Assembly (NCBI GenBank): GCA_011524855.1 | Contig: WTJK01000041.1 | Coordinates: forward strand, 1-45,346 | DNA: 45,346 bases | Source of the DNA: Methanobacteriota archaeon | GTDB lineage: Archaea > Thermoplasmatota > Poseidoniia > Poseidoniales > Poseidoniaceae | Direction: 5' to 3' | Position numbers and translations under genes: made by a program | Notes under the pieces: model-generated | Told to the model about the DNA's origin: nothing | Seen by the model: only the letters and a program-made list of their open reading frames with translations | The model's database searches: none | In this document: positions 9,802-19,405 of the stretch, in pieces | How the letters are laid out: each line of letters starts with the position of its first letter | Position numbering within the stretch: the stretch's first letter is position 1

Positions 9802-10071
9802 TCACTCTTCTTCGGCGACCTGAACAGGCCCGCCGGCGGCGGCGATCTGTTCACGGAAGTGGTGGAGGATTTGCGGCTCGGATGACGTGCGCGGGTCAAT
9901 CTCGGCGACGGAGTCAATGTTGACTTGACGGCGCTTCACGTTGTGACGGGAACCGAGGGTGGAATACGCAAACTCGGTGGCCTGGGCGTTGTCTTCAGCG
10001 GGGATGTCGAACGTGAACCCTTGTCGTTGACTGCCAAAAGGGGCGGTGCCGGTCACACGGAAAGCCTTCAT
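9802..10071 (-). CDS. rpl18a: 50S ribosomal protein L18Ae (LX)
   Basis: MKAFRVTGTAPFGSQRQGFTFDIPAEDNAQATEFAYSTLGSRHNVKRRQVNIDSVAEI. ATG at 10071; the ORF track extends further upstream. Confidence 0.88.
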   Translation of the reverse strand: MKAFRVTGTAPFGSQRQGFTFDIPAEDNAQATEFAYSTLGSRHNVKRRQVNIDSVAEIDPRTSSEPQILHHFREQIAAAGGPVQVAEEE

Positions 10072-10091
10072 GCGCCAGCCGACCCAGCGTT

Positions 10092-10101
10092 TGATTTTAA
10101 A
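10092..10101 (-). promoter_or_regulatory. Putative TATA box for the L18Ae-prefoldin-FtsY operon
   Basis: Minus strand reads gccagcgcgTTTAAAATcaaacgc, centred about 26 nt upstream of the L18Ae ATG, compatible with a leaderless archaeal transcript. Confidence 0.5.
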
Positions 10102-10167
10102 CGCGCTGGCGCGCTTTTTGCAGCACATTGACCAAAACCTTGAGTCAGCCGAAGGTCACGCCACGCC

Positions 10168-13100: not shown

Positions 13101-13308
13101 ACAAGGAGGCGGTGGCCAAACATCCGTGCCATGGCTTCTCGGGGGTTTGGCGGTCGGCCTGGCAGGGTACCTTGCGGCGCAGTCGGTGACGCATCGGCGC
13201 GAGCGTGTTCAGAGGGACGTCGTGAAGCCGCCGTTTTCCGCCCTTGAAACCAACATAAATCCAAAAATCTCGGACGGCGATGGTTCGTTGGGTGAGGGTG
13301 AACCTTGA
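10168..13308 (+). CDS. Secreted subtilisin-like serine protease (S8) with thrombospondin type-3-like Ca-binding repeats and C-terminal TM
   Basis: Triad motifs VVLAVADSGLDADH, HGTHVAGTLV, SSSGTSMATPVAAGAAG; repeats DHDDDDLDGVANVDDRCPDETASEDDEDRDGCLDDDDGDGVANLRDECPDENALPADADGDGC; C-terminal VPWLLGGLAVGLAGYLAA. Confidence 0.95.
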   Translation: MGKAAWLVLLLLLPSLGHPSANEPLDNDPPMTAGSTWVLESTDGPWHSSDWQYLLSREIHPLRTLTPHRLLVWTSEGLPSDVVASASPADAGQWKADLGGETINAHRTVRVVLEPNLPAVAKSSVLDRVSSMGTVMDTTGMDRITPWVAVITLQANPATDLNPLLSMPGVAWVEPVLTTHARNGQAAALVEHGQMSAHPFWEVGLDGTGVVLAVADSGLDADHACFRNATDPNAWNANTNATNPALGEPGPDHRKVLHLNLTVDSNDTPGHTDYRHGTHVAGTLVCRDVHSETSGASPRNGSSLANGAMLVFQDIVDASGWNPPRVDELLAEASTHGALVHSDSWGDDTTAYTVRTGRFDAYALAVPWSLALIAPGNGGEGILEPANGRNVIAVSASTKGATPDRWASSAYGPTEADTAGVFLLAPGHNLQSAAADGFLDTNNDNLRSSSGTSMATPVAAGAAGIVQQMYEQGWLHGAREPTRALAVADLAPGWSAAHNNTLLLGHGFTPSGALIRATLAMATSPLDQEARNGGKGGDAWRTQYDGWGVLNLSRLVSPDTARHNASPVANTWVHDSFRLNGSVNEWLEPRLAEGNTVEAVSNLTWQGEGATGPFLQTGDMWQRRFTPADGEDVRLRLAFPAKPEPMLVDDVQLRVRLDDGRWLLGDRWQANGTPTVFGPSTDFNNLSLFPGSNETTVGLNIPAWMLANRSHIDVQVVARYVSPGPDEGSVGLGGDATGFALVIQGVDRDSQDHDDDDLDGVANVDDRCPDETASEDDEDRDGCLDDDDGDGVANLRDECPDENALPADADGDGCLDDSDADGFTDDVDMCSTPDLAWPVNETGCYPADRPPRLDLVDAPASESDVREALVVAWLYADDDGDDAFMTAALRTTDGAATNLSTCTLASNASEVLGRFECRWQIPDDLPPHAHNGGVYDVVLSAQTLNRSPAAELEPLVVVAATNLTLRWDAASPPMAGEEQGGGGQTSVPWLLGGLAVGLAGYLAAQSVTHRRERVQRDVVKPPFSALETNINPKISDGDGSLGEGEP

Positions 13309-13352
13309 AGTCCGATGGCGCGGTGGACAGACCATCCGGAAACCGGAAGGTG

Positions 13353-14363
13353 ATGAAAATGGGCGAACGACTCTATGTGGGAATTGACCTTGGAACCTAT
13401 CAATCAACCATCGCGTCCAGCGCTGGAAAAATGCACACGGTCGAGACCGTTGTTGGCCGTCCCAAGGACCCCGTGGCCCGCAACTTCCTCGGTCGCGATG
13501 TCCTCTTTGGCGATGATGCGCTGAAGAACAAGCTCGCCTGCAACCTCTACCGCCCCATGGCCGCAGGTGTGGCTCAAGACGACGAGGCCAACCTTGCCGC
13601 AGCCAAGGCCTTTGTCTCCCACCTGTTGGAGACGGTGGACCCTGAGGAATACGACGAAGTGCTCGGTGTGATTTGCTCTCCCAGCCACGTTTCGTTCACG
13701 GACAAATCCAACCTCGTGGCCACCCTCCGTGGCCAGGTGAACGCCATCATGGTCGTGACCGAGCCTTTTGCCACTGCGTACGGCATTGACGAAATCGCAG
13801 GTTCGATCGTGGTGGACATCGGCGCAGGTACCACCGACATCGCTCGCGTCTACGGGACGTTCCCCACCGACGAAGACCAACTGACGATCACGGAAGCAGG
13901 CGACTGGCTCGACCTCCAACTCATGGAGCTCATCAAGAAGAAGTTCACCGGTGCCCAGATCACCAAGGACATGGTTCGCAAGTGGAAAGAGGCTTCCTCG
14001 TACGTCGGCGGCGACGCCCGTGAAGTCACCGTTGAGCTTTCCGTTGAAGGGAAGCGTCAAATCGTTGACATCGGCGACCTGATGCAAGAAGCATGCGAAT
14101 TGATCATGCCCAAGATCGGCAACGCTCTGAAGAAGATCGTCGCTGGTGCCGACCCCGAGTACCAACCCGTTCTCCGCAACAACATCATCCTGTCCGGCGG
14201 TGGCTCCCTTATCGAGGGCTGCGCTGACCGAATTGCCGCGGAAATCGCCGACATTGGCGATGTGCGCGTTTGGTGTGTTGAAGACGCCATCAACTCCGTG
14301 GCCGTCGGTGCGCTCAAGTTGGCCTCCGAAATGCCCGACGACATGTACACCTCCATCAACTGA
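13353..14363 (+). CDS. MreB/MamK-like actin-family ATPase
   Basis: Phosphate-1 YVGIDLGTYQSTIAS, phosphate-2 SIVVDIGAGTTDIARVYG, adenosine motif NNIILSGGGSLIEGCADRI, and length near 336 aa. ATG 13353 preferred over 13305. Confidence 0.85.
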   Translation: MKMGERLYVGIDLGTYQSTIASSAGKMHTVETVVGRPKDPVARNFLGRDVLFGDDALKNKLACNLYRPMAAGVAQDDEANLAAAKAFVSHLLETVDPEEYDEVLGVICSPSHVSFTDKSNLVATLRGQVNAIMVVTEPFATAYGIDEIAGSIVVDIGAGTTDIARVYGTFPTDEDQLTITEAGDWLDLQLMELIKKKFTGAQITKDMVRKWKEASSYVGGDAREVTVELSVEGKRQIVDIGDLMQEACELIMPKIGNALKKIVAGADPEYQPVLRNNIILSGGGSLIEGCADRIAAEIADIGDVRVWCVEDAINSVAVGALKLASEMPDDMYTSIN

Positions 14364-14455
14364 GGCGGCGTGTTTTCAGAAGGGGCAAATCCACCCCCTC
14401 AGCGACCGCAGGGGCGGGAAGGTTCAAGTGCAGTCCAGCAGGGTTGCGCCCCCGT

Positions 14456-15721
14456 ATGGCGATTGAGAGTGCTTCCCCGGTTGACGGTCGTGGCCTTGGC
14501 GCTGGTGCCAACGATGAGCGCGCAGCGCTTGAGGGGATGCTCAAAGGCTACCCCGTTCATCAACTGGTTGAGGAGGTGCTCGTCGCCTGGGACGAACTGG
14601 CCCGACGCAACGAGGAGCTCGTCGTTGTGAAACAGCGCCTACGCGTCCTCGAATTGGACTTGGCTGAACGACAAGACGCCATGGCGCCTGAACTGAGTCG
14701 ACTTCATGAAGCCGAACACGAACTCACCGAAGCACATGCCAAGATCACCCACCTTGAGCGCCTCGTCGCAGATGCACGCGAGGAACTGGCTGCTCAACGG
14801 TCGTCCCTGTCTCACGAAGAACGGGAGCAACTTGTGACCGAAGTGGACCAGTTGCGCCAGTTGACGGATGAACAACACGGCGTGATCGGCGAAATGGAAG
14901 GACGTATCGTCCAGATGGTGGCTGCGCTTGAAAAAGCGGCTGAAGCGGGCTTGACGTCGGTCACGGCGGATGAAGTCCGCGCCCTCAAACACCAGGTGGA
15001 CGAGACCCAGCGGCGGCTCGAGGTTGAGAAGGCTGCGGCTGAAGCGCTCGAAGAGGAGCGGCAGCGGCTCCGTGACATCGCCGACCGCTTGCGCGGTTTG
15101 CTTGATGCGCGCGACCGCAGGTTGGCTGAACTCGAAGAGCAACTGGAGCGCGTGATGCAAGGCCCACGCTCGGTGTCCGCCGAACACGATTATCTCGTCG
15201 AACAGATCGAGGACCTCAAGCGACGGTTGCTCGAGCGCAACCGAGAATACGAATCACTGCGACGACGAGAGCGGCGCCTTCACAGCGATGTGTTTGAGCG
15301 CGATGAGCGGCTCCAACAAATGACCCTCACCATGACCGACCTCGAGGCGGCCCTGCAGGACCGGACCGCTGAACTCCGAGCGATGGAAGACCAACGGGCC
15401 TCCATGGAGCATGAACTGGACACGGCTCGTCGCAGTGAACGCACGCGAGAAGTCGTTGGTCGGGTGTTCGCTGATTCCCTTTCGTTGGTTCGCGGCCATG
15501 AGAGCCGTGAACTGAAGCGTGAATTGTACGCACGCACCCCCGATGTTGAGCGGACCATCAAAGCCCCAACGGCAGAAGACATGGCCACCTTGGCCAGCGG
15601 CGAAGGTGTGGAGCTGAGCACCGATGAGACGGTCATTGAACCCGGCATGGACGTCGACGGGGTTCGTCCTCCGTCGCCCGGTGGCACCGGTGACCCCGTT
15701 GTGGAAGACCATGAAGAATGA
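14456..15721 (+). CDS. Long coiled-coil protein
   Basis: Extended heptad-like Leu/Glu/Arg-rich stretch (ELARRNEELVVVKQRLRVLELDLAERQ...LEEERQRLRDIADRLRGLLDARDRRLAELEEQLERVM...LVEQIEDLKRRLLERNREYESLRRRERRLHSDVFERDERLQQMTLTMTDLEAAL). Confidence 0.85.
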   Translation: MAIESASPVDGRGLGAGANDERAALEGMLKGYPVHQLVEEVLVAWDELARRNEELVVVKQRLRVLELDLAERQDAMAPELSRLHEAEHELTEAHAKITHLERLVADAREELAAQRSSLSHEEREQLVTEVDQLRQLTDEQHGVIGEMEGRIVQMVAALEKAAEAGLTSVTADEVRALKHQVDETQRRLEVEKAAAEALEEERQRLRDIADRLRGLLDARDRRLAELEEQLERVMQGPRSVSAEHDYLVEQIEDLKRRLLERNREYESLRRRERRLHSDVFERDERLQQMTLTMTDLEAALQDRTAELRAMEDQRASMEHELDTARRSERTREVVGRVFADSLSLVRGHESRELKRELYARTPDVERTIKAPTAEDMATLASGEGVELSTDETVIEPGMDVDGVRPPSPGGTGDPVVEDHEE

Positions 15722-16531
15722 TCACGTGCATGCTTCAATCATTGGTTGAAGCCGTTCTCGGAGTGAAACAAGGTCATCGCTTTCTTCAGTGATGGTGCCG
15801 GTCACGATCCAATCTGCACCGGCACGGACGGCACGTTCAACATCGCTTGGCGTGCGAAGCCCGCCGCCCACCATCAGCGCCAACCCGTCAACGGTTCGGG
15901 CCCGCTCAATGAGGGCAGGGTTCACCGGCGTGTCTGCACCGCTACCGGCCTCCAGGTAGAGCAAGGAAAACCCGTACATTTTGGCGCACAGCGCATAAGC
16001 ATGGACCGCGTCCACATCGTCAGGCTGAACGAGCTCCGCCTCGCCAACCTCGCCAACTCGCCCACCGGGTGCGCACACCACGTATCCGGTCGGCAACGGC
16101 TCAACGCCAAAGCGGTCAATGTACGGTGCTCCGCGAACCTGCTCTCCCACCAAAAACGCCCGCTTGGTGGAATTCATGAGCATCATGAACGTGATGGCAT
16201 CGGCTGCAGGAGAAAGCGCGTGGGCTCCACCCGGAAAGAGCACAACCGGCACATCCCAGTGCAAGCTGTCACTCTCGGGGTCTTGGCTGGCAGCAAACAT
16301 GCGAAGTTCGAGCGCTTCCTGAATGGCAACGCAGGTTGCGTGAACAACGTCATCGGGTGTGTCGGTGGAACCGCCAACGAAAATCAGTGACGTGCCGCAC
16401 TCCACCGCCACCATGGCACGCTGGGCTGCTACCTCGGGAGACTGTTTGGCAGGGTCGATCAGGGTCACGTGTCGCGCCCCGCCACCGGTGGCCATCACAC
16501 GCTGAAGCACGGTCGTTTCCGTCGTGTTCAT
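15722..16531 (-). CDS. Geranylgeranylglyceryl phosphate synthase
   Basis: HVTLIDPAKQSPE, LIFVGGSTDTPDDVV, PVVLFPGGAHALSPAADAITFMMLMNS, YLEAGSGADTPVNP, LMVGGGLRTPSDVERAVRAGADWIVTGTI. ATG 16531 preferred. Confidence 0.93.
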   Translation of the reverse strand: MNTTETTVLQRVMATGGGARHVTLIDPAKQSPEVAAQRAMVAVECGTSLIFVGGSTDTPDDVVHATCVAIQEALELRMFAASQDPESDSLHWDVPVVLFPGGAHALSPAADAITFMMLMNSTKRAFLVGEQVRGAPYIDRFGVEPLPTGYVVCAPGGRVGEVGEAELVQPDDVDAVHAYALCAKMYGFSLLYLEAGSGADTPVNPALIERARTVDGLALMVGGGLRTPSDVERAVRAGADWIVTGTITEESDDLVSLRERLQPMIEACT

Positions 16532-16619
16532 GGCCCGTTGCTGGACCGCCGGAGCATAGGCGTTGCCCTCCTCATTCACGAATACGAGGCTTCTCAAGGC
16601 CCGTCGTTCTCGCCACGTC

Positions 16620-18395
16620 ATGGGCGAGGGGCCGTTCCGACGCTTGCTCGCTTACATGCGACCCCACCGCTCCACGGTCCGTCTGGCCACGTTTTGTTCG
16701 GTGTTCAACAAGTTCTGGGACTTGGCGCCCCCGCTGCTCATCGGCTTGGCCGTGGACGTGGTGGTGCAACGGGAGGATTCCTTCCTCGCAGGCCTGGGGC
16801 TGGTGGACCCGTGGCATCAACTGGTCCTGCTTTCCGTCTTGACCTTCCTCATCTGGGGACTGGAATCGTTGTTCGAATTCTTCTACGGAGTCCTTTGGCG
16901 GAACCTGGCCCAGACCGTGCAGCACCACATGCGCTTGGACACCTTCGGCCACGTGCAACAGCAGAGCACGGCGTGGTTTGACGAACGGCAAAAAGGGGAC
17001 ATCCTCGCCATCCTCAACGACGACATCAACCAGCTTGAACGGTTCCTCGACAAAGGTGCGAACGACCTGCTCCAAGTGGCGACCACGGTGGTGGTCGTTG
17101 GCGCCGTGTTCATCGCCATCTCTTGGCAAGTGGCCGTCTTTGCCGTGTTGCCCATCCCCATCATCGTGTGGGGCTCGTTTCGCTATCAGCGCAACCTCGA
17201 GCCCAAGTATGCGCAAGTTCGAGCCGCTGCAGGCAACATGAACGCCCTTCTGGAAAACGATCTCTCCGGCATGACCACCGTCCAATCCTTCACCGCTGAA
17301 GCCCATGAACAGGCCAGGGTGGAGGCGTTGAGCCAAACGTATCGGGAGGCGAACCAATCCGCGATTCGGCTTTCTGCGGCGTTCACACCGCTCATTCGCA
17401 TGGCCATCTTGGTGGGGTTCACGGCCACCTTGCTGTTGGGCGGCTGGTTGACCCTTGAGGGGGCCATGGCCGTCGGGGCCTATTCGGTGCTTGTGTTCAT
17501 GACACAGCGCTTGTTGTGGCCGCTCACCCGCTTGGGCGAAACGTTCGACCTGTATCAGCGAGCCATGGCGTCCTCCACCCGGATCCTCGACGTGCTCGCC
17601 TCGCCGGTTGAACTGAAGCAAGGACAACATGAATCAACCCGTGAAGCTTTGATGAGCGCCGATTTGACGTTTGAGAACGTCTCTTTCGCCTATCCTGGAC
17701 GCGAACCCTTGTTCGACGGCCTCAACTTGACGTTCGCGGCCGGCACGACGACCGGCATCGTTGGGTCGACGGGGGCGGGAAAAACCACGCTGATGCGCCT
17801 CCTCCTCCGTTTTGCAGAACCCAGCGAAGGAAAAGTGGTGTGGGACGGTGTTCCCCTTGATGAGTGGAAACTTCACGCACTGCGCTCCTCCATGGGACTG
17901 GTCGACCAGCACATCACGCTCTTCCCGACCACCATTCTGGAAAACATACGGTACGGGCGGCTGGATGCTTCCGATGAGGAGGTGAAGGCTGCCGCCGGTG
18001 TGGCTGAAGCCACGGCCTTCGTGGAAGCGTTGCCAGACACCTGGGCTACGCTTGTGGGCGAAGGGGGTCATCGCTTGTCAGGAGGACAGCGGCAACGGCT
18101 GGCCATCGCCCGAGCCGTCCTCAAAGACGCCCCCCTGTTGTTGCTGGACGAAGCCACCTCTGCGGTGGACAACGACACGGAAGCAGCACTCCAGCGTTCC
18201 ATTCACACCATTGCACAGCACCGCACCACCGTCATCATCGCTCATCGACTGTCCACGGTTCGCCACGCTGATCGCATCCTGGTGCTGGAACACGGGAAGG
18301 TCATTGAGGAAGGTACGCATGAGGCGTTGTTGAATCTGGGCGGTGTGTACGCTCGCTTGTGGGCCGTTCAGACGGGTTCGTTGGTGGAGGGTTGA
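16620..18395 (+). CDS. ABC transporter, fused TM and ATP-binding domains (MsbA/multidrug-type)
   Basis: N-terminal ABC membrane domain, then GIVGSTGAGKTTLMRLLLRF, HRLSGGQRQRLAIARAVLKDAPLLLLDEATSAVD, VIIAHRLSTV. Confidence 0.95.
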   Translation: MGEGPFRRLLAYMRPHRSTVRLATFCSVFNKFWDLAPPLLIGLAVDVVVQREDSFLAGLGLVDPWHQLVLLSVLTFLIWGLESLFEFFYGVLWRNLAQTVQHHMRLDTFGHVQQQSTAWFDERQKGDILAILNDDINQLERFLDKGANDLLQVATTVVVVGAVFIAISWQVAVFAVLPIPIIVWGSFRYQRNLEPKYAQVRAAAGNMNALLENDLSGMTTVQSFTAEAHEQARVEALSQTYREANQSAIRLSAAFTPLIRMAILVGFTATLLLGGWLTLEGAMAVGAYSVLVFMTQRLLWPLTRLGETFDLYQRAMASSTRILDVLASPVELKQGQHESTREALMSADLTFENVSFAYPGREPLFDGLNLTFAAGTTTGIVGSTGAGKTTLMRLLLRFAEPSEGKVVWDGVPLDEWKLHALRSSMGLVDQHITLFPTTILENIRYGRLDASDEEVKAAAGVAEATAFVEALPDTWATLVGEGGHRLSGGQRQRLAIARAVLKDAPLLLLDEATSAVDNDTEAALQRSIHTIAQHRTTVIIAHRLSTVRHADRILVLEHGKVIEEGTHEALLNLGGVYARLWAVQTGSLVEG

Positions 18396-18529: not shown

Positions 18530-19405
18530 ATGCAAAATAAGACGTTTTCAAAAACAACCAACCTGCTGCTGATTGCCACCCTGACCCTTGCGTTTGCCGG
18601 AACCGTTTCGGCTGCCGCTGGCGAAATGAACGAAGCCACCGGGCTGCCAGCCCACTTGTACGACGCCTCTGGCGACGTTGACAGTCTGGCCCTGGTCACC
18701 TACTTCCTCTTCTTCGTCGGCTACATCGCCATGGGCGCTGCCTTCGTTTTCTTCATGAGCGAGCGCGGCAACGTGGCTCCTCAATACCGCACCACGATGA
18801 CCATCTCGGCTCTCATCGTCGGTATTGCTGCCTTCCACTACTACTACATGCGAGGCGTGTACGCCGACTTCGGCGTCGTGAGCATCGAGTACCGCTACAT
18901 GGACTGGATCATCACCGTGCCCCTCATGGCCCTCAAGTTCCCTTCTCTTGTTGGAAAGGACGCCATCACCGACGAGAAATTCCTCGGCCTCGGCTTCACC
19001 GGCATTTGTTTCACCGGTGCCATCATCATGATTCTGTTCGGCTACCTCGGTGAAGCCGGTGTCATCAACGGCATGGCCGGCCTCATCCTCGGCGGTGTCG
19101 GTTGGGCCATGATCATCGTGGCTACCGGTACGCCCTGGTCCTCCGGCAAGGGTGTTGACAACAGCAAGATTGCCCCCGAGCTCATGTGGAGCACCAACGC
19201 TCTGCGCTGGTTCATCGTGGTCGGCTGGATCATCTACCCCATTGGCTACCTGTTCAACCCAACCGCAGGCGTCTCCGATGCCGTGTCCATCGAGATGATG
19301 GCTGTCCTCTACAACATCGCTGACGTGATCAACAAGGTCGGGTTCGGTGTTGTCGCCTGGATGGGCGCCAAGAAGGCCACCGAAGCTCTGGCTGCTGCTG
19401 AGTGA
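18530..19405 (+). CDS. Proteorhodopsin (type-1 microbial rhodopsin)
   Basis: Signal-like N-terminus, AAFHYYYMRGVY, EYRYMDWIITVPLMALKF (helix C), ILFGYLGEAG, Schiff-base Lys in YNIADVINKVGFGVVAW. Confidence 0.97.
   Translation: MQNKTFSKTTNLLLIATLTLAFAGTVSAAAGEMNEATGLPAHLYDASGDVDSLALVTYFLFFVGYIAMGAAFVFFMSERGNVAPQYRTTMTISALIVGIAAFHYYYMRGVYADFGVVSIEYRYMDWIITVPLMALKFPSLVGKDAITDEKFLGLGFTGICFTGAIIMILFGYLGEAGVINGMAGLILGGVGWAMIIVATGTPWSSGKGVDNSKIAPELMWSTNALRWFIVVGWIIYPIGYLFNPTAGVSDAVSIEMMAVLYNIADVINKVGFGVVAWMGAKKATEALAAAE

Follow-up and report, generated by a model that had tools for sequence, protein, structure and literature searches.

A MamK-like actin and a conserved coiled-coil neighbour in Poseidoniales: a candidate filament and adaptor pair

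Introduction

Poseidoniales (Marine Group II) are widespread ocean archaea. The stretch of DNA analysed here, referred to as the window (45,346 nucleotides, contig WTJK01000041.1), comes from a member of this order and carries a gene for an actin-like protein, actin 1, that is followed by a gene for a coiled-coil protein (Table 1). This arrangement raises the question whether the two genes encode a filament and its dedicated partner or are neighbours with separate tasks.

Table 1 Features of the actin 1 locus (positions in the window) and of the other contigs discussed in the text
Feature	Position	Strand	Remark
rpL18a	9802..10128	-	named from sequence; left flank common to long- and short-form loci
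S8 subtilase, C-terminal transmembrane segment	10168..13308	+	constant upstream neighbour of actin 1
Related promoter-like box before actin 1	13298..13310	+	overlaps end of protease gene
MamK-like actin (actin 1)	13353..14363	+	336 aa; ATG start, alternative start at 13362; nucleotide loops intact; MamK-like sequence and fold
Promoter-like box GGTTCAAGT	14421..14429	+	upstream of coiled-coil gene
Coiled-coil protein	14456..15721	+	421 aa; ATG start; rods, two hinges, low-confidence tail
Core of coiled-coil protein, residues 18-165	14507..14950	+	stand-alone short protein in actin-less genera
Extension of coiled-coil protein, residues 166-350	14951..15505	+	found only in actin-bearing genera
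Most conserved block, residues 236-311	15161..15388	+	hinge GPRSVS and basic helix
Acidic tail, residues 361-421	15536..15718	+	low-confidence, poorly conserved
GGGP synthase (GGGPS)	15722..16621	-	named from sequence; right flank common to long- and short-form loci
G259, MamK-family actin	L207:8128-9225
G259, coiled-coil-rich protein	L207:9423-11279
Archaellum-cluster genes with ~50-aa domain	L247:4611-5093, L248:14153-14605, L249:10031-10453, L252:2581-3000

Results

Actin 1 appears to be a filament-type actin, most similar to the bacterial magnetosome actin MamK, and both its fold and its family suggest that it polymerises. Pfam matches are found to MreB_Mbl (1.3e-20) and Actin (3.9e-16), and the NCBIfam models score 334 bits for MamK (E 7e-100), 212 for BeeR, 73 for MreB and 27 for salactin. 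The scores for MamK, BeeR and salactin lie below the curated cut-offs of these models (400 bits, NF040964; 530 bits; 400 bits), MamK still being the closest named actin family; the relatives of actin 1 and its paralogue actin 2 likewise reach 330-369 bits on the MamK model, which has a cut-off of 400. The top sequence match in the PDB is also a MamK (5jyg, 1e-62), and the AlphaFold2 model of actin 1 (pLDDT 89) is structurally most similar to the MamK filament 5ljv (TM 0.92, 1.8 Å) and reaches a TM of about 0.8 against actins, i.e. the protein has the actin fold. The phosphate loops, the DxGxGT motif and the glutamate at the catalytic position (SEPFA motif) are kept in the alignments. As the score is below the curated MamK value and Pfam and NCBIfam scans of the examined neighbours recognised no magnetosome (mam) gene, we do not file actin 1 as MamK. 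Identity of actin 1 across Poseidoniales is 64-95%, and the best 80 matches listed all come from this order, i.e. from Candidatus Poseidonia and other Poseidoniales (phylum Thermoplasmatota). In a viral collection (IMG/VR) three contigs (L244, L245 and L246) encode MamK-like actins with 36-37% identity; on L245 the ORF after the actin resembles a phage terminase by eye.

An earlier note, made from the sequence of the window alone, had placed a gene for a ~420-aa protein about 90 nt downstream of the actin gene on the same strand, in agreement with the ORFs of 336 and 421 aa and the gap of 92 nt found here. Its description of the product as nearly all coiled coil with a disordered tail also holds. 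With a z of 4.3 the whole protein exceeds 500 of 500 shuffled sequences in heptad (3.5-residue) periodicity, which its tail lacks, and AlphaFold2 predicts helices at residues 18-30, 34-117, 120-163, 171-234 and 240-360, with hinges near residues 164-170 and 235-239, followed by a tail of low confidence. Identity across Poseidoniales is about 47-87%, and with both proteins conserved across the order, chance ORFs are ruled out. The best-conserved stretch of the rod lies within the extension, with a mean conservation of 0.94 over residues 241-280 and a near-invariant block, GPRSVSAEHDYL...VFERDER. The protein stays below the cut-off of every Pfam and NCBIfam model (30 bits vs 567 for SMC), and no arcadin match was seen in these scans. 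The PDB contains no relative by sequence and no significant structural match of the model, and no credible relative from beyond Poseidoniales was found in the phylum, the PDB or the viral contigs.

MamK-like actins are encoded in 118 of the 194 genomes of the order, most of which have two, actin 1 and actin 2. We compared 100 distinct actin-1 loci, 99 of them with a downstream and 98 with an upstream ORF. Conservation of the pair across Poseidoniales, which had been set as a test, is borne out, i.e. the coiled-coil gene lies immediately downstream of actin 1 in 91 of the 99 loci, and both genes are kept in the other eight. In these eight, which belong to four genera (g9, g14, g4, g7), the coiled-coil gene has moved or ORFs are interposed, the distance being about 60 kb in genome G145 and the gene lying far from the actin in g9. 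The actin or the coiled coil is missing from 13 genomes of actin-bearing genera, 10 of which also lack GGGPS, so the locus is absent from these assemblies. Real gene absence was rejected for the remaining three as well: in two of them the contig stops at the coiled-coil gene or short of it, and in the last one near GGGPS.

Upstream of the coiled-coil gene the box GGTTCAAGT ends about 27 nt before the start codon, its GTTCAAG core being nearly invariant in 93 loci. Related hexamers show an enrichment of about two-fold at 30-60 nt before genes generally in the loci examined, so GGTTCAAGT looks like an ordinary Poseidoniales promoter element. As each gene has a promoter-like box of its own, actin 1 and the coiled-coil protein may be transcribed separately.

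A search profile made from the first ~150 residues of the coiled-coil protein and run over the 194 genomes finds the core in 160 genomes and all 21 genera. Seven genera of family f2 (g11, g12, g13, g15, g17, g19 and g20; about 72 genomes) yielded no actin of either kind. The coiled-coil protein is found in 51 of these genomes as a short form of about 130-210 aa, encoded between rpL18a and GGGPS just like the long form elsewhere, sometimes with an extra small ORF (loci examined), and most short forms examined have the same box as GGTTCAAGT at a similar position. The extension (residues ~166-350) is found only in actin-bearing genera. The earlier note had counted a coiled coil in actin-less genomes as evidence against the pair; such proteins do exist in the form of the core, whereas a long form was seen in actin-bearing genera only. 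Genome G105, a candidate for a long coiled coil without actin, in fact encodes a short one (170 aa) whose open frame runs upstream.

In a six-gene species tree the actin-less genera form one clade (bootstrap 99), and the actin-bearing g14, g16 and g18 branch below it. The simplest history is that one branch lost both actins, the S8 protease at the actin-1 locus and the extension. Since the lost actin and the lost extension flank the retained core on either side, this took at least two deletions. All evidence for this joint loss comes from a single branch, on which the genomes also shrank. Relative-rate covariation, computed on a fixed tree with 39 taxa, is highest of 15 gene pairs for actin 1 and the extension (Spearman 0.44), compared with 0.34 for actin 1 and the core and 0.35 for the top control pair, and gives weak backing to a coupling of actin and extension.

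As the extension was found only in lineages that keep the actin, actin 1 and the coiled-coil protein probably act together as filament and adaptor. The main rival explanation, which we consider unlikely, holds that the coiled coil is an independent, order-specific structural protein whose extension has a task of its own and was lost by genome streamlining, the actin being a mere neighbour. The core at the same place in actin-less genomes, the promoter-like box of its own, the eight loci in which adjacency is broken with neither gene lost and the restriction of the loss to one branch would all fit such a protein. However, no long form without actin was found among the 51 short-form genomes, the part that was lost is the best-conserved part of the protein, and adjacency is otherwise kept across both families.

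An S8 protease gene directly precedes actin 1 in 82 of 98 loci, and several of the others break off at this point; all eight loci with a non-adjacent coiled coil have the protease gene in this position. The protease is an actin-1 neighbour at least as constant as the coiled-coil protein. Together with its absence from the locus in the actin-less genera this might indicate that the protease is the true partner, the filament then serving to organise surface proteases, with the coiled coil as an incidental or secondary component. We regard this as improbable, as the protease has a short cytoplasmic tail that is poorly preserved from one lineage to the next, its ectodomain varies, and in a few genomes a different surface protein is interposed. 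Ectodomain and tail differ strongly among lineages although the locus is the same; in family 1 many tails end in an acidic stretch that is preceded by a P-x-F or similar motif. The window further contains a rhodopsin gene (18530-19405, plus strand; Pfam Bac_rhodopsin, 1e-32) about 3 kb downstream of the actin/coiled-coil pair.

Actin 2 is about 48% identical to actin 1 and is encoded elsewhere; the genome from which the window is taken has both (actin 2 on G000:C49). In a small tree that sets the paralogues against MamK, G259 and viral sequences, each paralogue forms one clade (100/100), as do both together (100/99). As both paralogues are moreover present in both families, the duplication is older than the family split. 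Actin 2 (L002, L062-L068) lies directly downstream of a gene for a ~340-aa zinc-ribbon protein, which has the same genus distribution as actin 2, bar short weak matches. This partner has a ~50-aa domain in common with the product of a gene just upstream of that for the large first archaellum-cluster protein in four actin-bearing clusters; of the two archaellum clusters examined from actin-less genomes, neither showed this gene.

The shared domain and the co-occurrence of archaellins and actins in family 1 and in genera g14 and g18 would suit a role of the actins in positioning the archaellum or its polar machinery. Such a role appears very improbable, since two genera without actin (g13 and g20) possess archaellins, no archaellin was detected in g16, which has both actins, and the domain concerns actin 2 rather than the actin 1 locus. 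A strict association of archaellum and actin 1 is ruled out by these three genera.

Discussion

Based on our findings, we consider it about evenly poised whether a MamK-like actin that forms filaments is encoded here together with a dedicated rod-shaped adaptor whose extension binds the filament. Actin 1 with its intact nucleotide-binding motifs would, judged by fold and family, polymerise into a MamK-like filament. The N-terminal core, which is found order-wide in Poseidoniales, may bind a partner that is independent of actin, and the extension with its near-invariant hinge and basic helix may contact the actin filament. Consequently, the coiled-coil protein could either cross-link filaments or tether them to the partner of the core, and the lineage that lost both actins would have retained the core and shed the extension. 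We count in favour of the adaptor the adjacency in 91 of 99 loci, the occurrence of the extension only with actin, the shared loss branch, the conserved extension, the covariation of 0.44 and the TM of 0.92, as well as the MamK/coiled-coil pair of G259 and the adaptor genes next to bacterial mamK (see below). Against it we count that there is a single loss branch, the control covariation of 0.35, the coiled-coil gene's own box, its separation from the actin in g9 and the fact that the protease stays with the actin also in loci from which the coiled coil has parted.

On a larger scale, we tentatively propose, with less than even confidence, that the order has an undescribed actin cytoskeleton built on two MamK-like actins of ancient origin. 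Each of them would have a partner gene of its own, the long coiled coil in the case of actin 1 and the zinc-ribbon protein in that of actin 2. The coiled-coil partner would combine an actin-binding rod with an order-specific core, and the system as a whole would have been dropped upon genome reduction in one lineage. A conserved module of filament and adaptor with a natural loss lineage, if borne out, would make the function of archaeal actins testable and take MamK-like actins well beyond magnetosomes.

Among known systems MamK with adaptors such as MamJ is closest, as MamK is the best match of actin 1 by HMM, PDB search and fold. In known systems a poorly conserved adaptor gene adjoins mamK, and in bacteria mamJ and mg-1g50, both adaptor genes, are among the neighbours of mamK (PMC10653835); the pair of actin 1 and coiled-coil gene resembles the mamJ-mamK arrangement (PMC10653835). 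In contrast to MamK, actin 1 is archaeal, scores below the cut-off and has no recognised mam gene among its neighbours, and the coiled-coil protein of Poseidoniales is unrelated to any named adaptor. A further member of the Thermoplasmatota, G259 (contamination estimate 7%), encodes a MamK that exceeds the cut-off of the MamK model, and the next gene codes for an unrelated, coiled-coil-rich protein of 618 aa, for which no homology to the coiled coil of Poseidoniales was detected. BeeR is the second-best match of actin 1 by HMM and fold and is weaker than MamK on every measure (212 bits vs a cut-off of 530). Salactin, a filament actin of euryarchaeota, has been reported to be closest to MamK (PMC10746226), but actin 1 has only 27 bits on the salactin model.

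The earlier note had taken the pair to be a candidate for an undescribed system, and our search of the open literature likewise revealed no description, no paper on an actin of Marine Group II and, judged by title, none on an actin of Poseidoniales. An archaeal precedent is the crenactin arcade cluster, in which an archaeal actin is accompanied by partner genes, the SMC/Rad50-like arcadin-4 among them (PMC5173319). Its actin belongs to another family and its partner genes are unrelated; what it shares with the Poseidoniales pair is the clustering of an archaeal actin gene and partner genes.
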